NCBI GenBank assembly: GCA_037974965.1 | Contig: JBBPFI010000006.1 | Location: 806,001-870,000, forward strand | Reading direction: 5' to 3' | Length of the DNA stretch: 64,000 bases | From: Dacryopinax spathularia | Taxonomy: Eukaryota > Basidiomycota > Dacrymycetes > Dacrymycetales > Dacrymycetaceae | Shown here: piece after piece, positions 385 through 44,740 of the stretch | How positions within the stretch are numbered: the first letter of the stretch is position 1 | How the letters are laid out: each line of letters starts with the position of its first letter | Notes under the pieces: model-generated | Database searches by the model: none | What the model saw: the letters and a program-made list of their open reading frames with translations, nothing else | What the model was told of the DNA's origin: nothing | Made by a program: the position numbers and the translations under genes

Positions 385-1070
385 GACTGTAGCCTTGTAG
401 TTGTTCTGCTGTGATCCTTAGAGCCTCAGGGGAGATATAGACCGTAGACATCGCTTGAGCAGAGGTACTTATATGGATTATTAGTAATCCAATTGGTCGA
501 CCGCGCAACCGGCGTCCGGGCAGCTCGAACGCCCAAGCCCATCGGTCCATCGATGTCCACGACCATCCACGGCTGTCCACGCCTTTCGGCCCAGTACGTA
601 TTGCCGTTATACCGTAAAAAATCGGAGAGGCACGACCTTGGCAGTGCGGGGAGCGGTGAGGAACACGACGCGCCCTCCGAGCAGCGGACTTGCGCACCAT
701 AACGCGGGATCATGCGAAGAGCGCGTCGGACAGATTACGGACAAGACTATTCCGCCGCCTCATCCGCCACGGTTTCTCCGAAAAACAAAAGGAATGACTC
801 ATGGGTTATGCAACTGGACTGATTACTTCAACCTGGAAACGTAATAAACCCAGTACATACTTTAGGTAACTAACTTAGCTTGACTTCGCAGATTCAGTCA
901 CTGAGCCATCTTGCTCTTCGTCTCCTTGATGCAGGTTTCCAAATCTATTTCTCATTGTCATCTCTACACCCAATATCATTCAGTTCATTACTCTCGCTCT
1001 TCGTCATCTCATCTTGTACTCTCATCGACTGTCTGATTCGCATTGAGATCCCATGCTCTTCCACCACGCC
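385..1070. other. Intergenic: promoter of the first SDR and 3' flank of the second
   Basis: No gene seen. The left part holds the TATA-like element (468-473, minus) and a segment around 480-570 that resembles the region upstream of the SDR gene at 1071-2060. The right part is probably 3' UTR of the gene at 1071-2060. Confidence 0.5.
468..473 (-). promoter_or_regulatory. TATA box of the first SDR gene
   Basis: TATAAG on the minus strand, 84 bp upstream of the ATG at 384. The equivalent position upstream of the tandem paralogue also carries a TATA-like element. Confidence 0.5.
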
Positions 1071-2060
1071 TCACGCCAGCAGTGCACCACCCTCAACATC
1101 GATAGTCTGCCCAGTCATATTCGTGCACTTCATCAGGAACAGATAGGTCTCTGCGACCTCGTCGGGCTGAGCGGTATGCTTCACAAGGGAGTGCTCGGCA
1201 AAGTTCTTCAGGAGGCCGGCTCGCACGTCAGCGGGCATGCCGTCCCAGAGCTGGATTATGGTCAACTGGGATCCTGCTGCAATGCATCTGGAGGCTTACC
1301 TCTGTCTCTACACCACCCGGCGCGACTGTGTTGACACTATTGCACAGTGCGTTAGTTCGATCCCATTTGACTTAGGAAAGGAGCAGACACACCGAATGGG
1401 AGCCAAGTCGACCGCAAGACCACGGGTGATGCTCTCTACAGCTCCAGCAACAGCTGTCCATTGGTCAGCTACTGACCGCCTTGTATCGACAATCCCTGCG
1501 TACCAGCAGTCATAGCCCATCCCTTAGCGGGCTTGCGAACGACAGTCCCGACTGACATCGTGACTGACGCTCCTGGGTTGAAGAGTCCCTTCTTATACGC
1601 GTACTTGGCCGACAGGACGGGTCCCCAAAATCGGACGTCGAAGATGCCCTTCTGGGTCTCGAGGTCTTCCTCCATGAAGTTCATGAGGAGGGGATCACCC
1701 GCGGTCCAGACCTATTCATACATTCTAGGTAAGCTTGGTACCACGTAGTTCAGATGTTTGACGCACCAGATGGTCAAACTTCCCAACCCGATCCCAAAAC
1801 GCCTCAATAGACTTGACATCCTTCGCATTGAGCGTCAAGCCGGAGACGGAGCCCTCGAACAACGGGTTGCTCTTCAAGAGCTTGGCAACAGCAGCATCGA
1901 CCTTGGCCTGGCTGCTGGAGGAGATGATGACTTTCGCGCCGTGCTCGAGGGAGCCTTTGGCGACTGAGTAGCCGATGCCGGACGAACCGCCAACCACGAC
2001 GACTAGCTTGCCGACGAGGTGTCGGAGGGATGGGGCACTCTGGGCAGTAGCGATAGACAT
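1071..2060 (-). CDS. Atypical SDR-fold protein, tandem paralogue
   Basis: Complete minus-strand gene with short introns; start ATG at 2060, stop at 1071. Order of landmarks: GGSSGIG cofactor loop, an acidic/Lys-rich helix region, FDHLV strand end, VWTAGDP, a Phe-Trp-Gly region, a strand with SVGTVVRKP, then the helix that normally carries Tyr-x3-Lys, then VDLAPIR and the C-terminal GQTIDVEGG strand. Joining exons at 1508 and 1452 gives GWAMTAAVAGAVES, so Thr and Ala stand where Tyr and Lys normally stand. The fold is therefore clear but classical SDR catalysis is doubtful. It resembles the divergent bacterial SDR group typified by PRK07041. It forms a tandem pair with the gene at 1-384 and has a third relative at 23877-24928. 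Confidence 0.88.
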
Positions 2061-2873
2061 GGTTGTTGGATGACGTTCAGTAGTTACGCAGGAGTCGTCA
2101 GGTTGATCTGCAAGGTACACGTCGTCGCTTGAGTAGGCCTAGTTATATCCGCCAGCCGGAGATCGCCAGCACATGTGGATTACGTCGTTGCTCGCAGCTT
2201 CGACGCCTCAACCGCTGTGCCGGCCCGGCGATCCATCGACGTCCACGATCACCCATGTTCTCATCTCATCGTGTCGGCAACGTAAGCCATTGTAGGGGAC
2301 TCGGCTCAACAGCTGCGATAATTTGCACAGAGAAATGCAGGGGCTTTAGGAGAGTGGCTAAGGGACCGGATGTTCCATCCTCGTTCCGGCGCGTTCCTAC
2401 GACAACTTGCAAGCATGGACAGGTGGCTCGCTCCGGAAAGACGGCGAACAACAGGTCTTACAGTAGCATCAGAACAGAACTACCGCTGGCCAGCAACAAC
2501 GACATTATCTGGGACTTTCTGCAGAGAATAATTGTGGAAAGTGCATGTAAGCACTTGCCCCACGAAAGACCACGCAAGACTAAAATGGAAAAGCGATCCG
2601 GACTGACGAGTGGCGGCGGTTAGGAGATGCGGTGGCGGCGGTTAGGAATGCCAACCTCTTTTGAAGATCCATGAAAAGAAATGAAGTACTTCTTGCGATA
2701 GTTATATCGATCCCAAAAATTAGTAAAGTCACGTAAGAGATAAGCCTGACAATCGATCGGACGTGACCGCAAGGTGCCAAAACGCGACGCGTGCTGTCGT
2801 CGCCTCGTCCCTACATTCTTGTAGGGCAACCTCTTACAGCAACCACATTCTTGATTATCTCTTTTGTATATGT
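2061..2873. other. Divergent intergenic region (SDR / POLK)
   Basis: No gene seen. It holds the promoter of the minus-strand SDR gene (TATA-like element 2142-2147) and that of the plus-strand polymerase gene starting at 2874. The stretch around 2225-2255 resembles 535-570 upstream of the other SDR copy (shared core CCATCGA-GTCCACGA). Confidence 0.5.
2142..2147 (-). promoter_or_regulatory. TATA-like element of the second SDR gene
   Basis: TATAAC on the minus strand, 82 bp before the ATG at 2060. It sits in a stretch similar to the promoter of the tandem copy: a TCGCTTGAG core precedes both TATA elements on the plus strand. Confidence 0.45.
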
Positions 2874-5173
2874 ATGCCCCCGCCTAAGCCTCCAGAAGTC
2901 GATTCTCTTGTCAAGAGGCTTGCTGGGCCATCTACGAACAAGGCTGGACTAGCACAGGATCAGAGTGAGATCAACCGGATTATCGCTGAAGCGTCCAAGG
3001 TACATCCCTGCACGCAGATCTCGATGAACTGGCTCTGACAGCTGTCCACAGGGCTCGAAATTCTACGAAGTACGGCATCCTCTCGACGAGCTGGGATGCC
3101 GTTCTGACTCTACGTGCAGAATGAGAAGCGCAAAGATGAAGAGCTCACTGCTCGTATCAATCGCCTGCTGGAAAAGCGTGACTCCGTCATCAAAGGCGCT
3201 GATCTAGCGAGGTTAGAGAAAGCAGCGGACCAGATCGTACGCCCTTCCGCTCCTTCCGGAAGAAATATATGCTGATCGTAATACAGCTAGTCGAAATGGA
3301 AGCCAAACGAGATCTTTCACAGCTCATCGTACATGTCGATGCCGATGCGTTCTATGCTAGCGTTGAAGTCATGGATAATCCGGACCTGAAGGGAAAGGCT
3401 TTCGGTGTTGGAGGCGGGGTGCTTACGACGGCCTCATACGAGGCACGCAAATACGGTGTAAGGAGTGCAATGCCCAGTATGTCTTGCGCCACGCGCAGAT
3501 CACGCGTGCTCTGACCTTCCTTCTAGTGCACATCGCCAAGAAGCTTCATCCGGATCTGATCATCGTCCCCTGCCGTTTTCCCCGCTATTCGGAAGTCTCG
3601 AAGTCAATGATGAGCGTCCTGCAGCGCTTTGATCCCAACATGCATCCTGCTGGCTTTGATGAAGCCTATCTCAAGTACGCCCTGCCTTGTGACTGTATTT
3701 CCATGCGCGCTGACATGCAGGTCAGCATCACGATGTATTGTGCTGAACACGAGCTGGATCCGGAGGAATGCGTGCAGATCATTCGGGAAGAGGTGCATAA
3801 GGAGACGGGGTTGACGATCAGTGCGGGTATTGCACCGAACAAGGTGCGCAGCGCGGACTCCTTTCCTCGACAGCAGCTGTCTGATGCAACTTCTAGATGC
3901 TCGCTAAGATCTGCTCAGACCGAAACAAGCCGAACGGACAGTTCATGCTTCCCTTTGACCGTCGCGCTATCGTTGCCTTCATGAAGGACCTTAGCGTGCG
4001 GAAGGTGCCCGGGATAGGCAGGGTGAACGAGCGCGTTCTCGAGGCAATCGGGGTAAAGGTGCGTACAATCAATTCTGCTCATAGAGCAGCTCCTGACGAA
4101 AGTCAGACTTGTGGCGACATCTACACCCAACGAGCAGTCATCACCCTCCTCGACCACGAACTCGGCCTACACGGTCTCCTGCAAGCCCACCTAGGGATAA
4201 GCAGCAACAGAATCGAGCCTCCGATCCGCGAAGCTCGGAAGAGCGTAGGCGTAGAACGCACATTCAGCGCCGTGGGCGATACGGCCAAGTTGATGGAGAT
4301 ACTGGAAAATATCGCGGAGAGCTTGGAGGAGGATTGTGAGCAGACTGGATGGGCTGGGAAGACTTTAACGTTGAAGTATAAGCTGCATACGTATGAAGGT
4401 GAGCTTGCGCATGCCCTCGTATGGAACGCGATTGACCGGCTCTGCAGTCTTCACGCGAGCTAGGTCGCTCGACCGATACATAAAAAGCAAGGAGGATCTG
4501 TTCTCTGTAAGATGCATGTTCTTCCCCCTTACGTACCGCTGATCATTATCAGATCGGCTCTGAGCTGCTACGCAAAGAGCTTCCACTGAGAGTCCGCTTA
4601 CTGGGCCTGCGGTTGACCCAATTGAAGGACTTGCGCGATAAAGGCGAGAAGGGGATCAAGCGGGTATGTCTTTCCACGTCAAGTTTTGGCAGGCCTGGTC
4701 TGACTGTTTTCAAGTTCTTCAAGGATGCAGGCAATGAGCCACCAAGGAAGCGTACTCGCCTGAACGACGAAGAGGATACTCAGATGGGATCTATGATGGA
4801 AGATGATGTCGAAGAGACCCCCATGGACGATGGGGATGCTCGAGGGACAACCATGACGCCAAATGCCAGCCCCAGCCGAGATAGCAAGCGGATTTCGCCT
4901 AACGGCAAAGGCCGACCAGCGGCCGAGGAGGAAGAACCTTCAGATGGACGGCAGAGACTCGTCTGTCCGATCTGCTCGAGCTCGCTTCTTACCGACAACG
5001 ACGGATTCAACGCTCATGTCGACTATTGTTTGAGTCGAGGCGCGATTGCTGAACTGGCGACGATGGGTTCAGATGATTTCCCTCCTGCCGTATCACCCAA
5101 GAAGAAACCGGCGGTCCCACCGAAAAGCCGAACATCATCGAATCCATTTCTCTTGAGCAAGAAATCGAAGTGA
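2874..5173 (+). CDS. POLK: DNA polymerase kappa (Y-family translesion polymerase)
   Basis: Nuclear Y-family polymerase that bypasses damaged template bases. The start at 2874 ([10 protein letters not shown]) begins an N-clasp region typical of the kappa/DinB branch ([16 protein letters not shown]). The palm motif [12 protein letters not shown] carries metal-binding Asp and Glu; after removing an intron the second catalytic motif reads GFDEAYLNIT (Asp-Glu kept; the common Ser-Leu before them is Gly-Phe). A helix-hairpin-helix region ([12 protein letters not shown]) and little-finger domain ([10 protein letters not shown]) follow. Near the C-terminus is one UBZ4-type ubiquitin-binding zinc finger (CPIC, HVDYC). 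The extreme C-terminus is basic (LLSKKSK); I see no clear PIP box. Several short introns, including an 18-nt exon at 3052-3069. Same strand as the next two genes. Confidence 0.95.
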
Positions 5174-18169: not shown

Positions 18170-19258
18170 TGTTGCTTTTGACTTTGGCGGAGTGAAGGTA
18201 CTTGAGGGTGACGCGGAGGGAAGAAGGGTGATGAATCAGAGTTGAGAGGACAGGCAGGCGTACTTATAGGGGAAGAAGAGTGCTGCTTTGCCCCGCACGT
18301 CAGAGTTGTCTCACAGAGGAGAAGATGGTGCGAGGATCGGAAGCTGGTGGCCAGAATCCCAACCCCCTTGGGCCTGACCATCGTCGACACAACAAACAAG
18401 CCTGACTTCTCAGCATTCCCAACCGATCTAGAGCGCCGAGCACGGCGGGGAAGGACAAGAACAACGTACGACGCCTGCGTAAGGTTGCGGCAGAGCCTAC
18501 GAGAGCGCCGATGGTACGACCAGCGTCTGAGCGAGGTTGGGGAGACACGTGTGCTCTGGTATGCGGGAGCATAGGTCGTAAGATGACGGCCTAGTCTGAG
18601 TAGGTGCCCAAGATGTGCTAAAGGCAGGCAAAGAACAGAGCCATCAAGAGGAGCACTTTGGTAGGAGCAGGCAGAGGTGATGTCTCCGGAGCGCGTCATG
18701 TCGTTTGTCCCACGAGGGTACATGGGCGCTCTGCGGAGCCCAATGGGCGGACAAGCGCTCGATGGTGAGGAGTGATCGGCCCATAAGTGGTCGGCACCTG
18801 CCGATCGCGGTTTGTTGTCGTACGTTACTCGAGTTATGCCTCCGTCCGAGCTTGCCGTCACGGAGTTGCGGCCAAGCGCAAAGTCGTCCGACAGGTGTTG
18901 TTGACTAAAGTGTGCCTCGAAGCATCGTCATCCTCCTCCCCTCAACCCGAAGTAACGCAATCCCATGATGCAGCCGATGTGAAGCTGAGGATGCCGAACG
19001 ATGAAGAGCGAGCTTTGAGGAGGCAGGCAAACAGACCACAACAAAAGGAGGCGCGGCTCTGCACGTGACTTTGAGAAGCCTCGCCCCGCACTTCTTCGTC
19101 GGACCCTACCGCGAGAATGCCAATTAATCCCCTCCGAAAGGAAGGCGTCCCTTCCATTGCGCCTCCAAACCTGCATGCCTCTCCTCGCGCCGTACATAGC
19201 TCTTGACATTGCCCATTCCATTCTTCATTAATCGCCTAGACGACCGACAGGACCAAGA
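18170..19258. other. Divergent intergenic region (ferritin-like / Smr gene)
   Basis: About 1.1 kb between two divergent genes. It holds the TATA box of the ferritin-like gene (18263-18268). Open frames here lack codon bias, homology and start context. Nothing else is recognised. Confidence 0.45.
18263..18268 (-). promoter_or_regulatory. TATA box of the ferritin-like gene
   Basis: TATAAG on the minus strand 94 bp before the ATG at 18169, with CCCC immediately upstream on that strand (CCCCTATAAG), which overlaps a stress-element core (CCCCT). Confidence 0.6.
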
Positions 19259-20293
19259 ATGGCAGCTATCATACTTGGCATATTCCAGCTGCTGCAGAAA
19301 CTGTTATGTGCGCCACAGCAGCCACAAGATCAACAGGCTTGGCAGCAACAACAGCAGCAGTATGGGCCTCAGGGACAGTGGCAGCAGCCACAGGGGCAAT
19401 ACCCACCGGTACAGCAGCAACAGCCCTGGCAACAGCAGCAGCAGCAGCAATGGCCCACGCCTGCGCAGGGACAGTGGCAGCAGGGCCCTCCCCAACAGCA
19501 GCAACAACAGCCATGGCAGCCCGTCCCGCAACACCAGCAACACCAGCAGCAACATTATGCCCACTCCCCCTCTCCTCGCCCACACGCGAATCATGCGCAT
19601 TCCCCCTCTCCCCGGCCTCAAGGAGGGATGAACGGCGACATGCAGCACGCCGAAGACCCGCACTACAAGGCCCTCCGCGCGCAAGCGAACGAAGAAGGGG
19701 ACAAGATGGCCTCCTGCTTTGATAGGGCACATGAGGCGCATCAGCGTGGTGATGGCGCGGCGGCGAAGGAGCTGAGTAACGAGGGACACGAGCACCAGAG
19801 GAGGATGGAGCAGCTGAACAGGCAGGCAGCGGACTGGATATTCGCTGGTGCGTCCTTTTCCTTGCCTTCTTTCGCTCCCGCTGACTCGGTGTCTAGCGAA
19901 CAATGCCGCCTCCCCAGAGGGTACAGTTGACTTGCATGGGTTGTATGTGCAGGAAGCGATTGACAGGACTGAGGCTGCTATTCAGTCCGCTCAAGCGAGG
20001 GGCGAGCCAGAGCTTCGGGTCATAGTGGGGAAAGGGTTGCATTCAAAGGGGCACGTAGCGAAGATCAAGCCTGCAATAGAGCAGCTCATGGCCAAGTGCG
20101 TTCCGTTCCTCTTTCTCCCTTGCTAGCCAGGCTGACCAGGAGCGATAGGTACAACTTTGCCGCTGAGCTAGATCCGGAGAACGAGGGCGTCTTGGTTGTT
20201 CACCTTGGCGGGGCGGCGCAGGGCAGGAGAGGGATGGACGCGGACGAGGTTACGCGCCGGTTGGATAGTGACGAGAAGTGCGTTATCATGTAG
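19259..20293 (+). CDS. DUF1771-Smr domain protein with N-terminal amphipathic peptide and CaaX end (CVIM)
   Basis: Three exons (19259-19847, 19897-20095, 20149-20293) encode 310 residues. Order: an N-terminal hydrophobic/amphipathic peptide with Cys17 (MAAIILGIFQLLQKLLCAP); a Gln/Pro/Trp-rich low-complexity stretch to about residue 125; a DUF1771 helical hairpin (DPHYKALRAQANEEGDKM, then HQRGDGAAAKELSNEGHEH); and an Smr domain (TVDLHGLYVQEAID, VIVGKGLHSKGHVAKIKPAI). The Smr family binds nucleic acid and some members are endonucleases; the DxH-type motif DLHG is kept. The last four residues are CVIM, a consensus CaaX farnesylation motif. The protein may thus be anchored at both ends. It is the first of four low-complexity proteins in a row. 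Activity and membrane attachment are inferred. Confidence 0.88.
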
Positions 20294-21187
20294 AGCGCCT
20301 ATTTCTTGTAAGAGCGGGGTTACTCGCCCGCGGTGCGGGGTAGAATGGTCGTTCGCTGCAGGGCAGTGGCGGATCTGTAGACCATATCTATAATCTAGCT
20401 TAAGATGTCTGCTAATCTCACAGCCAGCTTCCAGTGCGACTTGTATTCCCGGCCCACAAGAATCTCCACTCGTCGCCTTCTTCCTCGGACCTGGTGAGCA
20501 ACACCCCCTCGGCACGAAAAGGCACCAGACCCCTACTAAGGACACGTGGTTCCGCGAGGAATCCCCCGAGCCCCTCCTTCCTTCCTTCCTTCTCTGCTCT
20601 TCACCGCCTTCACTGCAGACTGAAAGACATCTATCGCCCGGCAGTAGAGATATTTCACCCGCTGGCCTGGGCGCAGCAGAAGATGTCGCGCATTTCGAAG
20701 TGTCTGACAACCGACAATGCGACCTGATGAGAGGGCGCAAACCCGGTACGCGTTGCATGCTATAAATCCCAGGCGCTGGGACGTATCAGACCTCCCAGGC
20801 GAGGGGGCGCACCCAGCAAAGAGGGAAGGCGTTGACGTGCTAGCGACAACCGCTGGCCAGCGCGTCCTGCGCCGTGAATCAGGACTGAGTGATTGAACGG
20901 GTTGGGGGATGTGGGATGCCGACAAATCCAAAAATACTTGGAAGGGCCGTGCTGCGGGTTGATGGGGTTGCTGGTCTGTCTTAGATAAAGGGTGCGAGGG
21001 GCGTCGTTTTGCGATCGAAAACAGACCGAGTTGGGAACGCAAGAAACCCCAGAGCGAGCGCGCGAGACCCCCCGCCAAAGCACTCTATATATCCTTCCTC
21101 CTGCTCGAAGCAAGTTGAGCATATACGCGCCTATCCAACTTCGAACACCTCGAGTTACCCGACCGACCGAACGTACGAACGAACGCC
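20294..21187. other. Intergenic with (CCTT)n and TATA element
   Basis: About 0.9 kb without a recognisable gene. It contains a CCTT tetranucleotide run near 20576-20594 and, at the right end, the TATA box of the next gene (21086-21091). Confidence 0.45.
21086..21091 (+). promoter_or_regulatory. TATA box of the 21188 gene
   Basis: TATATA in the context CTCTATATATCC, about 97 bp before the ATG at 21188, followed by a pyrimidine-rich stretch. Confidence 0.6.
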
Positions 21188-21572
21188 ATGGCCCTCATAT
21201 ATATGTGCTACAAGCTCATCCGCAAATACTTTTGCACGCCCGCCGAGGCGCCGCAGCAGCAAGAGCAGCAAGGTTACGGAGGTCCTCCAGCTGGATATCA
21301 GGGCCAACCGGGCCAAGGAGGGCAAGGCGGGCCCTACCCGCCTCAGCAGGGTTATGGGCCTGGAGGGCAGCAGCAGATGATGCAGCAGGGGTATCCGCCT
21401 GGACAGCCAGGAGGTCAGGTGTACCAGATGAACGGCGCGCCGCCCGGTCAAGGTCAAGGAAGGTGAGCACGCCGCTTCAGCCTTCTAGAGGCGTCGGGCT
21501 GCACCTCGGATAATGTGCTGACGCCGCTGATGTAGACAAGGACAAAACTGGGCCAAACCGGGCGGAGAGTGA
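21188..21572 (+). CDS. Small Gly/Pro/Gln-rich protein with N-terminal Cys-anchored peptide
   Basis: Two exons (21188-21462, 21536-21572; donor GTGAGC, acceptor GTAG) give 103 residues. The N-terminus MALIYMCYKLIRKYFCTP is hydrophobic and basic with Cys7 and Cys16; it aligns with the start of the Smr protein (K-x-x-C-x-P at the same place, also next to Gln-rich sequence). The rest is Gly/Gln/Pro/Tyr-rich with loose YGPGG, YPPG and GGQ repeats and no hydrophobic core, so it is expected to be disordered. The last exon reads QGQNWAKPGGE. Not recognised as a known family. Membrane attachment by palmitoylation of the Cys residues is a guess from composition. It has its own TATA box. Confidence 0.75.
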
Positions 21573-22056
21573 GGTTCTTCTTGCTTGCCCGACCGCACTT
21601 CTTCGGCATGCTGAGGCTGGATGGATGACGCTGCGAGCGGAGCGAAGAAGAAGAGGATAGGGACGCCGGACGGTTGATGCTAGAGGAGCTTGTTCGCTGT
21701 ACATGTACAATGCATACCTTCAGTTACGGGATATGCAACGTCACTACCCCCCAAGTCTGCGTAATTTGTCGTCGGACCTTCGTCTAGGCCTGTCGTGTGC
21801 CGTTGGTGGGGTCCGAGGGGTGAGGGACTTCTGCATAGCATCGTAGCGTGACTTGAACGACTCGGGTTTGTGGGACTGTCGGCTTCGGAGGTTATCTCGG
21901 TGGAGCTGTGCTGCCTCAGACAACCGCGGTCAGGCCTCGAGCAACCGTTATCTTGCATAAATACCGTATGGCTGCATAGATCGCATAGCACCAAACGCAA
22001 GTCCACTTGAGACGACCTCATCCAAAGCACCTAAGAGCACCGCAAATCGCACCAGC
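21573..22056. other. Intergenic, promoter of the 22057 gene
   Basis: About 480 bp. Holds the TATA-like element 21957-21963. No gene seen. Confidence 0.4.
21957..21963 (+). promoter_or_regulatory. TATA-like element of the 22057 gene
   Basis: ATAAATA, 94 bp before the ATG at 22057; same spacing as in the neighbouring genes. Confidence 0.5.
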
Positions 22057-22640
22057 ATGGCCTCCATCCTCTTGATCAAAGGCATCGTCAAGGGTGTCAA
22101 AGCCATCTCCGGCCACGACGACAAAGACAAGCACCATCATCATCCCGAGCAGCAGCAGCAATACCAGCAGCAACAGCAGCAGTACTACCGGCAGCAGCAG
22201 CAGTACTACCGGCAGCAAGGGTACTCCGGCGGCCCTCCTCCTCCGCCAATGCCTCCACAGAACAACGATCGGCACAGCCGTCGCGAGTATGAAAAGGCAC
22301 AGAAGGAGTACGAGAAGCAGCTGAAGGACTGGGAGAAGCGGGACAAGGAGGCGCGGAAAGAGGCTGAGAAGCAAGCGAAGAAGAATAAGCATCGGAAGGG
22401 CAGTCCGCCGCCCCCTCCTCCGCAGCAGCCACAGCAGTACTACGGCCCGCCAGGCGGAGGGTACAACGGCTACCCGCCGCAGAACGCCCCGGGAAACGGA
22501 TACTACGCGCCGCAGGGCCCGCCTCCCCAGGGATATTACGGACCCGGTCCGCAGCAGCAAGGTGTGTACCGATGACTTGCGCTTACAGTGAGTCGAGGCG
22601 CTGATGCGTGTCAGGAGGCAGGCTGGTGAAGCAGCGCTGA
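22057..22640 (+). CDS. Small Gln/Pro/Tyr-rich protein with charged central helix
   Basis: The first exon (22057-22561) begins MASILLIKGIVKGVKAISGH, an amphipathic Lys-containing helix, then His4 and poly-Gln/Tyr, a charged central helix (YEKAQKEYEKQLKDWEKRD, KEAEKQAKKNKHRKG), and a YGPPGGGY/APQGPPPQGYYG tail. Unspliced it would stop at 22573-22575 after QQQGVYR. I prefer splicing of a 53-nt intron (donor GTGTGT, branch CTGAT, acceptor TCAG at 22614) to a second exon 22615-22640, giving 176 residues ending QGGRLVKQR. The same phase-1 junction after a Gln codon occurs in the genes at 23195 and 44740, and the 44740 gene also continues GGRL. No known domain; likely disordered apart from the helices. 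Confidence 0.75.
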
Positions 22641-23194
22641 GAGGATGGATCGCCCAAAGACCTGGAGAGAGGGGATGGATCGTAACACGAGCTTGACCAA
22701 GTAGAACCAGAACCGATATACAAGTTTTGCCCATTTGTCTCTATACCCTTGCAATGTACAGTATCGACAACCAGACGAACTGAGCTGAATGTATGCGCAC
22801 AACTGCAACGCACGAAATCGGAGACGCGGCTCGGAGATAGTCTGCAACTTCCCTCCCCCGATCAACAATCACATGCTCCTCTCATCTCAGGGGTAAGTGG
22901 AGCGCGGGATTACACCTCGCGTCATTCTTTGGAGCGTGCTGTACTCTCAGTGGTCTAACTTGGGCAGTGCCTGCGCCGCGCCACGTTTCTCGATGAGGGG
23001 CGGTTACCTCTTTCTGCGACTTTGCGCAGTTGCTATGCTCGAAAAAGTTACTTGGCACAATCTTCGCTCCAACGGGCACGGAGGCCTGCAAACCCGCCTC
23101 AAGCTCGCAGGATGATATAAGTTCTCCTCAAGCTCGTGTGCCGCAAGGGATCTCTTAGACACAACCAACCAACTCTTAAGTACAAACACCAAAC
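22641..23194. other. Intergenic, promoter of the 23195 gene
   Basis: About 550 bp with no gene; TATA box at 23116-23120. Confidence 0.4.
23116..23120 (+). promoter_or_regulatory. TATA box of the 23195 gene
   Basis: TATAA in GATATAAG, about 75 bp before the ATG at 23195. Confidence 0.55.
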
Positions 23195-23641
23195 ATGTCA
23201 GCACCATTCATGCCCCCCACTCACCGCCGAAGCCCGGCTGGCGCCTACCCGCCCATGCGGCCCCAGCCGGTGATGCCCATGCCCCTTCCGGTCCCTACAG
23301 GCCGGAGGAGGGGTCATCACGGCCCTCGGAGGAGCCCTAACAACATGGCCTACGCATCTGGAGGATACGGTGGTTATCCGGCATATCCGCCTCAGCAGCG
23401 ACCGCAGCAGCAGCCGGCGTTCTACCCGCCGATGCCGCCGAATGCCGCTGCTTATCCGTATCCGTCGGGAGGGATGATGCAGCCTGGCTATCCTATGCAA
23501 GGGATGCCACCACCTGGAGTGCCGTACCAAGGAGGCGTTCCGTTCCAAGGTTCGTCATACTTTCCAACCTTGTGGAGTCATACTGATGGTTTGTTGGCAG
23601 GAGGGATGCCTTTCGACCGTCCGAGGAGGAGGGGATACTAA
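23195..23641 (+). CDS. Small Pro/Tyr/Met-rich protein ending in RRRGY
   Basis: Two exons (23195-23549, 23601-23641) give 131 residues. N-terminus MSAPFMPPTHRRSPAGAYPP, an Arg-rich patch (TGRRRGHHGPRRSP), then Tyr/Pro/Gly-rich repeats (YGGYPAYPPQQ, AAYPYPSGG, MQPGYPMQG). The 51-nt intron (donor GTTCGT, branch CTGAT, acceptor GCAG) lies in phase 1 after a Gln codon; the last exon reads GGMPFDRPRRRGY. The minus-strand gene at 44740 has the same RRSP-x-x-AY N-terminal phrase, the same intron phase and place, and the same RRRGY end, so the two are paralogues. No known family recognised; low-complexity and probably disordered. A TATA box is close upstream. Confidence 0.78.
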   Translation: MSAPFMPPTHRRSPAGAYPPMRPQPVMPMPLPVPTGRRRGHHGPRRSPNNMAYASGGYGGYPAYPPQQRPQQQPAFYPPMPPNAAAYPYPSGGMMQPGYPMQGMPPPGVPYQGGVPFQGSSYFPTLWSHTDGLLAGGMPFDRPRRRGY

Positions 23642-23876
23642 GCATGCGCATATATGCTAGCTTGTTGATACGCAGCCTGGACATTTGTTGGATATAGTAC
23701 CTTAGCTTCTGCAGAATGGACACTAATGGATCCCGCTTTTAATTTGTTATGACCGCAGCCGCCTGCATATACGCTCCCGCCCGGAATGACATCCGAAACT
23801 TGAGCTTTATTCTTCATGTTACGTACAGCAGCTCACGAACGCGTTAGGGGGGACGAGCTAAGTCCCCCAACCCTGC

Positions 23877-24928
23877 CTAGGTAAGGAGAACACCGTTCTC
23901 CACGAAGATCGTATGTCCCGTCATCATCGGGCACTTCATGAGGAACAAGTAGGCCTCTGCAATTTCCGCAGGCACTCCAACCCGTCTCAACGGCGACTTC
24001 TCGATAGAACTGCTCTTCATGCGTTCGAATGCGGGAGGGGGCAATGCCTCCCACATCTGTCTTCGGCATCAGCTAGAGACTTATGAAGCTAGGGTAGAGA
24101 CTTACCTCAGTGATAACCGCTCCCGGCGCAACCGCATTCACGCTGTTCCGAGGTCTCATTAGTCTTGTCGAGCGAATGTCAGGGACAGAGCACAAACCGG
24201 ACAGGGGCAATATCAAGCGCCAAACCTCGAGCGAAAGCCTCGATCCCACCCGCACCAGCTGTCCGGCATACGCGTTGAGCACCTCACCAATCGCTCTGAA
24301 TAAAGCTGCACCCACCAGCAAACATCGCAAAGCCCTTTACAGGCTGACGCGCAACCGTGCCGCATGTCAGGATCACCGAACCTCCGGGGTTGAAAAGGTC
24401 TTTCTTGACCGCGTACTGGACGGCAATGGCGGGGGAGATAAAGCGCACGTTCGGGCGAGCGTTCCACGCAGCGATGTCTTGTTCCATGAAGTTGGGTATG
24501 CCGACCGCGTCTCCAGCTGTCCAAATCTATGATGTTTGCCTGTATAAGCTAAAGACTTGGTAGGAAAAGGGAAAGACGCACCAGGTGATCGAACTTCCCT
24601 ATGTCGTCCAGGAGCTTCTGGATCGACGAGGGCGAGGTGGCATCCACCGTCATGCCAGAAATGGAGCCCTCAAAGGCCTTGTTGCCTTGAACGAGCTTGG
24701 TGACGGCCGCATCGACCTTCTCCTTCTTGCTCGAGGCGATGATGACTTTGGCACCGTGCTCCAGGCTGGCTTGGGCGACACCAAGCCCGACCTGGCACAA
24801 CCCCATTTCAGTGATATGTGTGAAGAGGTGTTTGAGGTGCTTACTCCTGAAGATCCGCCAACGATAAGGACGAGCTTGCCAACCAGATGACGTAAAGACG
24901 GCAGAGAAGATTCAGTCGGAACAGCCAT
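23877..24928 (-). CDS. Atypical SDR-fold protein, dispersed paralogue
   Basis: Third SDR in the window: start ATG at 24928 (MAVPTESSLPSLRHLVGKL), stop at 23877. The cofactor loop GGSSGVGLGVAQ is formed across the first intron. The core shows LEHGAKVIIAS, FDHLV, GGSVILTCGTVARQP and LALDIAPVR, ending MTGHTIFVENGVLLT. Joining exons at 24310 and 24260 gives GFAMFAAGAGGIEAF, so Phe and Ala replace the usual catalytic Tyr and Lys. It is more diverged from the tandem pair at the left edge than those are from each other. It converges on the small Pro-rich gene ending at 23641 and has a strong TATA box 114 bp upstream. Enzymatic function is doubtful on sequence alone. Confidence 0.87.
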
Positions 24929-25049: not shown

Positions 25050-25556
25050 CGTCTCCCTCCAGTCCAAACATCGTTACGCACAACGCAGACTAGGAAATCC
25101 ACGCTTACCTAATGTCCCAAGATCCACGCTTATCTAATACCGCCCAATATTACCAGGAAAGGCGACCAGCATCACCAGAATCAGGAGAAGTCAGAGCGCC
25201 GAGCTATAGCCAGCAGGACAGCGACCGAGATCGCTCGAAGAGGTTCGGGTACCCCGGGGCTGGGCCCACGGCGGACCACCGAGCGCTGTGAGGCTGTCGA
25301 CTGTACGTTTGTGCGCAGGGGCGCAGGAAGCTGAGATCTTGTGACCGGGACACTTCGCCCTGATCAGGAGCAGCGAGCATTCCGAGCCGGTCAGAGGGAC
25401 AGAGCAACTGAGTAGCCAAATCAATCTCCGGATGTAGCCCAGAGACCGCTCTGCAATTCCGAGAGGGACAGGAAGGATGGGATGACCGCGGGGAAACATG
25501 CATCCCATGAGGGACCGACCCGGCCAATCGCGAGCCGCGTTCATTCCCGTCTAGAT

Positions 25557-25562
25557 CACGTG
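25557..25562 (+). promoter_or_regulatory. CACGTG E-box in copy A
   Basis: ATCACGTGAG, 33 bp after a CCAAT box at 25524-25528; the pair is preserved in copy B. Confidence 0.35.
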
Positions 25563-25656
25563 AGGACGCATGGTAGTTCCTCATGGGGCATCATGGATGC
25601 CACTGACGACTTGCGTAGGATCCAGCATTCAACGCAGGACGAATGCGATGGCCGTG

Positions 25657-25686
25657 TCGTATCGTATCGTATCGTATCGTATCGTA
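25657..25686 (+). repeat. (CGTAT)n microsatellite
   Basis: About six tandem copies of CGTAT within copy A. Copy B has a shorter version near 26443-26458. Confidence 0.9.
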
Positions 25687-25829
25687 ATTGGAAACATGTG
25701 CGAGCCAGAGCGGTGGAGCATGAAGGCTTGAGCCGTAGTCCGCGGCATGTAGAGGCTGGGGCAATGCGTCCGGTGCGGCATAGACGGTCGATCACATATA
25801 TATTGTTAATCTTGGAGATACACTATCTG

Positions 25830-25873: not shown

Positions 25874-26268
25874 GTTGATATCGTTGCTAATATGGCCTGT
25901 CAATGTAGGCCTGTCAAGCGTGAGAATACCCGGGCCAATGCGTGCGCGTCCTCCCAGTATGCCGATGTCCTTCCCTCCCCCGTCTTCTCGCTCGCGCAGT
26001 TATGCAGTCCGCTCCTTGCCGCTTTTGCAGCTGGCCCAGGATGAACGATCGCTGGCAGCCTTCCAGCCCCGACAACAGGCTTCTCATGCGTGGTACCCGC
26101 CCGGTGAGCAGGGTAAAGAGATCATGTCAGCGAGAGTAGGACGAGCACGAGGATTCCGAGCCCATCATATGAATAGCGCGCGGCCTAGGTGCCAAAACGA
26201 TACCAGGATAGCGAGGGGGGCAGGTTGGGAGGACACTGTGCACCAGTAGTGACAACATCTTGAGGCGA

Positions 26269-26575
26269 ACATCCCATGAAGGACCGAACGGACCAATCAC
26301 GGCCCGCTCCTGCTTTTAGTGCAAGTCACGTGAGCGAGCCATGGAAATTCCTCATGGAGCAGCATGGATGTCACTCACTACTCCTCCGTAGGATCCAGCA
26401 AGGATTCACGGCAGGACTAGCACGATGCTCCGTATCCATCGCGTCGTATCGTATCGTGTTGTGAACATGTGCGAGCCAGAGCAGCGGACAAGCGGGTTAA
26501 GCATGGGCCGCAGCTCATGGTCTGCGTCGATGGAGGCGGCATAGATGCGATTAAGTGCGTTTGATCTAGAGAAAC
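26269..26575 (+). repeat. Diverged non-coding duplication, copy B
   Basis: Second copy of the 25500-25825 block, about 770 bp downstream in the same orientation. CCAAT at 26293-26297 and CACGTG at 26327-26332 match copy A in order and spacing. Confidence 0.7.
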
Positions 26576-44139: not shown

Positions 44140-44740
44140 CTAATAGCCTCTTCGCCTCGCCCGTCGTGCAGCCAACCTTCCTCCTGCACATCTATTAGCA
44201 CATCTGTGAACCCAGCCTAACGGCGTACTCACCTTGTAAGGGAGCTGCAGCTGGTGGAGGTGCGACAGGAGCTGCCGCGGTCGGAGCATATGCAGGTGCA
44301 GGCGCTTGAGCAGGAGCAGGCGGCATTGCCTGTCCAGGTGGGTATGGGTATGCGCCTCCTCCTGCATTTGGCGGATAGCCCGCTCCTGCATTTGGCGGAT
44401 AGCCTGCTCCTGCATTTGGTGGATAACCGTAAGCCGGGGGCGGCTGATTCGGCGGCATACCGCCCGTCGCGGGGTTGGCGACCAAGTCAGCGGGGATGTC
44501 GATATTGACCGCTGGATTGGCTGGTGCCTGCATCGGCGGGTTCATGGGTGCATTGGCTGGCTGTGGGTATGCGCCAGCGCCGCCTGCTGTACCGGTACCG
44601 ATACCACTGAAGAAGCCCGTCGAGCCTAGCATGCGGCGGATGGGGCCGCCTCCCGTGAGAAGGCCTCCTTGAGCGAGAGGTGTGCCGCCGCCTTGGTAGG
44701 CGGCGAGTGGACTACGACGATTGCGACGGCCTGTGAGCAT
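44140..44740 (-). CDS. Small Pro/Ala/Tyr-rich protein ending in RRRGY
   Basis: Two exons (44740-44233, 44183-44140) give 183 residues. N-terminus MLTGRRNRRSPLAAYQGGG; the middle carries imperfect repeats (three YPPNAGAG-type units in a row), then Pro/Ala-rich sequence (PAPAQAPAPAYAP). The 49-nt intron (donor GTGAGT, acceptor GCAG) is in phase 1 after a Gln codon; the last exon reads GGRLAARRARRRGY. The N-terminal RRSP-x-x-AY, the intron and the RRRGY end are shared with the gene at 23195, and the exon start GGRL with the gene at 22057. Family unknown, likely disordered. A full TATA box lies 98 bp upstream, again as in the 17-25 kb block, about 20 kb away. Confidence 0.78.

Follow-up and report, generated by a model that had tools for sequence, protein, structure and literature searches.

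The closest described counterpart of the gene that opens the locus examined here is yeast YPL199C, a homolog of NONU-1 and Cue2 that carries a DUF1771 domain together with an Smr domain (PMC3200294). YPL199C is S-acylated by Akr1 (PMC5364179), and some predictors name its Cys 233 and 235 (PMC3929663); it has been placed near the 40S head and, in nonstop decay, described as redundant with Cue2 (PMC8583833). It is also reported as an interactor (prey) of Wsc2 and Mid2 (PMC7466973, PMC6469404), and its deletion as causing either slow growth independent of the stresses applied (PMC7466973) or wild-type growth (PMC6469404). The locus itself lies in a 64,000-nucleotide stretch of Dacryopinax spathularia (hereafter the window), positions 806001-870000 of contig C6 (JBBPFI010000006.1) in a genome of 29.2 Mb and 24 contigs (GCA_037974965.1). 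It comprises four neighbouring genes, A to D, of which A encodes a DUF1771-Smr protein, and a fifth gene, E, elsewhere in the window (Table 1). Our best reading is that locally expanded, fast-diverging disordered proteins stand here beside a membrane-tethered mRNA-cleavage factor.

An earlier note on this DNA had described four adjacent plus-strand genes at 19259-23641 whose products are dominated by Gln, Pro, Tyr and Gly, spaced by about 480-900 bp and with a known domain in the first alone. Spliced models, assembled by hand from splice signals, bear out this description: the gaps are 894 bp (A-B), 484 bp (B-C) and 554 bp (C-D), the summed Q, P, Y and G content is 36.8% in A, 69.9% in B, 52.8% in C and 55.7% in D, and Pfam matches above cut-off were obtained for A and none for B, C or D.

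A DUF1771-Smr protein with predicted lipid anchors

Among described proteins, A is most like YPL199C by architecture, a comparison made without direct sequence alignment. The Pfam scan placed Smr directly after DUF1771, both above cut-off, and returned no CUE domain and no further match up to E 1. Among solved structures, the closest are Smr domains of NEDD4-binding protein 2 (N4BP2, 2vkc; E 1e-14), whose LDLHGL and TGRGNHS align to VDLHGL and VGKGLHS of A, that is, to its DxH and GxG motifs. On these grounds, we infer that A may be an active Smr endonuclease. The Lys within the GxG of A probably occupies the place of Cue2 R402, the middle residue of that motif. In Cue2, the change R402K was without discernible effect (PMC6598757).

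Moreover, A ends in a Cys-aliphatic-aliphatic-X (CaaX) sequence at its very C-terminus, KCVIM followed directly by a stop codon in exon 3, a feature absent from the earlier note. The ending presumably suits farnesyltransferase and resembles that of K-Ras4B. CaaX proteins are substrates of farnesyltransferase (PMC11121372); a search of that paper for the ending CVIM itself found no occurrence. Together with Cys17, which is, like Cys7 and Cys16 of B, a candidate S-acylation site from its sequence setting, the CaaX end suggests that A may be lipidated by both prenylation and S-acylation. This predicted modification can be likened to that of YPL199C, which shares the DUF1771 and Smr domains. The two proteins differ in that A has, in addition, a Q-rich linker, a hydrophobic N-terminus with a Cys and the CaaX end, whereas YPL199C is known as an S-acylated protein. 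At a length of about 240 residues for YPL199C, its Cys 233 and 235 would lie close to the C-terminus.

The interactions of YPL199C with Wsc2 and Mid2 (PMC7466973, PMC6469404) could suggest that A is an adaptor that works with cell-wall sensors at the plasma membrane and not in mRNA decay. We regard this as very improbable: the yeast deletion phenotypes, slow growth unchanged by stress treatments or wild-type growth, do not favour such a role, and A keeps both the DxH and the GxG motif.

A second comparison is with Cue2 and its Aspergillus oryzae counterpart SppC (CUE-DUF1771-SMR), which share DUF1771, Smr and the DxH motif with A but differ from it by the CUE domain, for which A gave no match. 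On wounding, SppC accumulates at the septal pore, and a fragment of its N-terminal 185 residues that lacks SMR is enough to rescue the deletion (PMC10023807). Septal pore SPA and SPP proteins of Neurospora and Aspergillus are disordered and act at a membrane-lined pore, a likeness to A-E that is by description only. It is conceivable, as a serious rival reading, that A-E form disordered plugs at the septal pore or at wounded membrane, with the Smr domain of A secondary, as in SppC. Stretches of likely disorder in 13 of the 23 SPP proteins (PMC10023807) would fit this scaffold. However, the same paper assigns the activity of SppC to its CUE-containing N-terminus and calls Cue2 its yeast ortholog, A is without a CUE match, and a further Smr gene lies in the genome at C3:1049574, without a CUE match in the stretch retrieved; we consider the scaffold unlikely.

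That gene (L002) is one of three loci with DUF1771 and/or Smr found in the genome, A included, in searches by the two domain families of A. Its Smr domain scored above cut-off, and it is a candidate of the Cue2/SppC type even though the fetched part (C3:1048074-1051265) has no CUE match and DUF1771 is below threshold. On the other strand it is adjoined by a gene resembling, by eye, that of ribosomal protein S4. The third locus (L040, C3:81183, in C3:80700-82300) has DUF1771 above cut-off and was not listed by the genome search for the Smr family; by eye it shows a CCCH-like stretch and an Smr-like end with DLH kept and no clear GxG. Outside this genome, viral contigs scanned with B, the domains of A and its Smr core held no relatives, and neither did a plasmid collection; prokaryote genome contigs scanned with the Smr core yielded one bacterial Smr-like locus (L041, 40% identity). 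None of these scans gave a fungal match.

Clustering and similarity of the low-complexity genes

We assessed how unusual the packing of these genes is by ranking 2,914 stop-to-stop open reading frames (ORFs) of at least 60 residues, from 314 kb of genome (264 kb contiguous, window included, with a further 50 kb taken from five other contigs), according to the Q+P+Y+G count in the best 60-residue stretch of each. In this sample, which covers 1.1% of the genome and comes largely from one contig, ranks 1-4 were taken by B (54/60), A (52/60), C (50/60) and D (44/60) and rank 5 by E (40/60), while rank 6 scored 36. A chance cluster is therefore unlikely (P ~1e-4 for four within 4.4 kb when five such ORFs are placed randomly in 264 kb), and the view that the array goes beyond chance low complexity is upheld. 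In whole-genome simulations, a comparable cluster arose in 3 of 60 random genomes with 554 such ORFs, a density that is an overestimate because it includes the A-D cluster itself, and in none of 60 with either 222 or 111. A scan that also required at least six Q retained A-D and one other ORF; E, which has more A, P and G than Q (Q 4.4%, A 20.8%), dropped out.

Similarity beyond composition was found for particular pairs. When the first 20 residues were compared for the six pairs among A-D against shuffles, A and B stood out (p 0.00025 when the first two residues were kept in place; this and all other pair p values are uncorrected for the number of pairs), with residues 3-19 of A aligning ungapped to 2-18 of B over 17 residues that end in K..C.P. 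The A-C pair reached p 0.07 with Met alone fixed. In the low-complexity parts, B-C was the sole passing pair of the six among A-D (p 0.0005 under global and 0.009 under local shuffling), and D-E passed as well (p 0.0005 and 0.005, respectively). The pairs A-E, B-E and C-E failed the local shuffle (0.94, 0.10 and 0.20), C-E giving 0.026 under the global one.

E, which the earlier note had not mentioned, lies 20 kb from the array on the opposite strand and, judging from their sequences, is probably paralogous to D. Common to both are RRSP near the start, AGAYP, AYPYP inside, QGG and a terminal RRRGY, and the position of their intron is identical, in phase 1 within a Gly-Gly pair (G/G) and before a last exon ending in RRRGY. 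Within the sequence analysed, endings of the form [RK]3GY were found in 3 of 5,011 candidate phase-1 short last exons, namely those of D, E and one other. D and E share ends, body and intron position, as expected of one family. A phase-1 intron at QG/G is in fact present in C, D and E, the last exon completing 8, 13 and 14 residues, respectively, and C, with the same intron phase as D and E, has GGRL from the last exon in common with E.

Whole-genome searches with B, C, D and E returned self-matches only below E 0.02. B and E each retrieved nothing but themselves; the other matches were weak for C (E 0.027, 0.135 and 1.1) and for D (0.079 and 2.4). One of the weak matches of D (L009, positions 900-3186 inspected) showed no D-like ending by eye and was set aside. 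Such searches are insensitive to relatives of this kind, as they did not link D and E to each other: these two make up a small gene pair left unlinked by protein searches of the genome because of low complexity.

The N-termini were also examined for helical moment (residues 2-17), which was 0.39 for A, 0.43 for B and 0.44 for C (shuffle p 0.036, 0.086 and 0.056, respectively); the same analysis gave 0.63 and 0.50 for D and E, in which it indicated no N-terminal amphipathic helix. From these sequence features, membrane attachment of A, B and C is plausible, for A also by analogy with its yeast counterpart, and some of the disordered proteins of the set are probably membrane-bound. CYSTM-type small proteins offer a further comparison for B, being short, with GYPPQ-like tracts and a C-terminal Cys-rich membrane segment. 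B is likewise short and has such tracts and a predicted membrane element. It differs in that its two Cys are at positions 7 and 16, with none after position 16, and in having no Pfam match; the CYSTM module gave no Pfam match in A-E, and C, D and E are without Cys.

The earlier note had held that the array is built from common modules. This stands for the A-B N-terminus and for the B-C tract (the D-E similarity extends outside the array) but not for all four genes: D is without the N-terminal helix, and most pairs are equivalent to shuffles. Nor was any sequence found that A-D all share beyond composition, as members of a tandem paralog family would.

Several results weigh against the reading of a related, jointly acting set. 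The five other N-terminal pairs among A-D were no better than shuffles (p at least 0.13 with the first two residues fixed), eight of the ten low-complexity pairs among A-E were no better than local shuffles, the few that pass do so on p values taken singly, and D and E have no amphipathic N-terminus by the test used. In a DNA comparison of the ten pairs, similarity was absent or marginal, the best being A-C (p 0.013) and A-E (0.047) with the other eight at 0.08 or above; any duplication would therefore be old. Words of 7 to 9 nucleotides were common to the four promoters no more than among random segments. Codon bias, measured against a single exon that by eye belongs to a ribosomal protein gene, was raised in C only (z 4.6) and near random in A (1.2), B (0.0) and D (0.7). 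Finally, the Wsc2 and Mid2 interactions of YPL199C and its differing growth phenotypes mean that the main role of the yeast counterpart is not settled.

These points bear on an alternative that we regard as a fair possibility, though less likely than not, namely that A is an ordinary YPL199C-type protein and that B, C and D are independent, lineage-specific genes whose Q/P/Y/G tracts arose through codon-repeat expansion, with no joint function. It would account for the many pairs without similarity beyond composition, for the tandem repeats in the Q/Y tract of C and for promoters with no words in common. However, it leaves the A-B, B-C and D-E similarities to be explained, and that the four top-ranked ORFs of the 314-kb sample lie side by side would be improbable. 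B-E may be partners of A or simply its neighbours, and unrelated neighbours are nearly as likely as joint action.

Gene models and surroundings of the array

Coordinates of the genes and their parts are collected in Table 1. The introns of A-E are short (49-73 nt), with branch-like CTGAC/CTGAT sites in those of A-D; together with the gene content, they point to a fungal source. If its last intron is retained, C would instead be a protein of 172 residues ending at 22575; this form was used in the Pfam scan, which gave C no match above cut-off (the best reached E 0.0057 and 16.3 bits, where 27 would be needed). Tandem repeats of 12-24 bp lie at 22148-22217 of the window, within the Q/Y tract of C, so the length of this tract may vary between strains.

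Table 1. Features of the A-D array and of gene E, in window coordinates
Feature	Position	Strand	Details
Gene A, DUF1771-Smr, 310 aa	19259..20293	+	Exons 19259-19847, 19897-20095, 20149-20293; introns 19848-19896, 20096-20148; CTGAC branch-like sites
A, N-terminal module, residues 1-19	19259..19315	+	Hydrophobic helix, Cys17 a possible S-acylation site; aligns to B; helical moment 0.39
A, low-complexity Q/P/W/Y/G tract	19316..19633	+	Best stretch 52/60 Q/P/Y/G
A, DUF1771 domain, across intron 1	19664..19904	+	hmmscan residues 136-199, 87.6 bits, 7e-25
A, Smr domain, across intron 2	19926..20206	+	hmmscan residues 207-282, 2.1e-10; DLH (DxH) and GKG (GxG)
A, C-terminal CVIM, CaaX prenylation signal	20279..20290	+	Exon 3 read directly: KCVIM, then stop
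TATATA	21086..21091	+	At -102 of B, within the 400 bp scanned
Gene B, 103 aa, Cys-bearing N-terminus, then G/Q/P/Y tract	21188..21572	+	Intron 21463-21535 (phase 2)
ATAAATA	21957..21963	+	At -100 of C, within the 400 bp scanned
Gene C, 176 aa, amphipathic N-terminus, Q/Y tract, charged middle, P/G/Y tract	22057..22640	+	Phase-1 intron 22562-22614; last exon GGRLVKQR
Gene D, 131 aa, P/G/Y/R-rich	23195..23641	+	Phase-1 intron 23550-23600; last exon coding GGMPFDRPRRRGY; no Pfam match
Gene E, 183 aa, A/P/G/Y-rich, outside array	44140..44740	-	Phase-1 intron 44184-44232; last exon coding GGRLAARRARRRGY; no Pfam match

As had been noted, most of the genes have a TATA box of their own: one was found for B, C and D (TATAAG at -79 in the last case), and none in the 400 bp scanned upstream of A. 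AGGGG/CCCCT, present in the 400 bp before each of the four genes, occurs in 51% of random 400-bp stretches and was rejected as evidence. When 19000-24000 was scanned for bacterial promoters and terminators, three promoter-like sites (1.8 expected) and one terminator-like site (4.2 expected) came up, a result uninformative for a fungus. Of the two flanking genes described, the ferritin-like gene, upstream of the array, was recovered (Ferritin_2, 1.5e-33). For the SDR gene, downstream, the scanned gene piece matched SDR models at 3e-5, just under their cut-offs.

Two further features were observed in the window, a direct duplication (~25374-25717 and 26148-26488, spacing 769-774 bp) with pieces 75-88% identical, and a CGTAT microsatellite inside it (25653-25686). 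A whole-genome search for the heme-peroxidase family returned one locus, which may mean that this fungus is without lignin peroxidases.

A possible membrane-tethered mRNA-cleavage factor and its companions

As the best explanation overall, we favour, tentatively and at somewhat less than even confidence, a local, old and fast-diverging cluster in which an anchored A is accompanied by the disordered proteins B-E. A would be a lipid-anchored DUF1771-Smr protein of the YPL199C type, held on a membrane at one end by its hydrophobic N-terminus with a Cys and at the other by prenylation, and the long, Q-rich disordered linker would allow its Smr domain to reach ribosomes, bind those that have collided and cleave the mRNA. 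A duplication origin of cluster members is suggested by their sequences, with B, C and the relatives D and E arising nearby through duplication and exchange of modules (the A-B anchor, the B-C tract, and the body and last exon of D and E). The amphipathic N-termini of B and C, Cys-bearing in B, might seat these proteins on membranes, where their Q/P/Y/G tracts could form a weak multivalent coat that concentrates A or other clients.

A coat or condensate, joint action and a working system are at this point conjecture, as is the stress- or surface-related condensate system that had been proposed for the array. The most elaborate version, a clustered, membrane-tethered condensate module in which a coat of lipid-anchored B and C with D and E recruits doubly lipidated A to cut the mRNAs of stalled ribosomes at a particular membrane, appears to us decidedly unlikely. 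No such cluster, and no spatially confined unit of no-go decay, was found in the openly licensed literature of PubMed Central at the level of titles and the opening of abstracts.

YPL199C has been studied less than its sibling Cue2, the no-go decay nuclease, and the papers cited here give no reason for its lipid modification. In D. spathularia, a protein of this type that is apparently anchored at both ends and encoded beside a cluster of unassigned disordered proteins provides concrete candidates for its partners, and with them mRNA cleavage localised at a membrane becomes testable.

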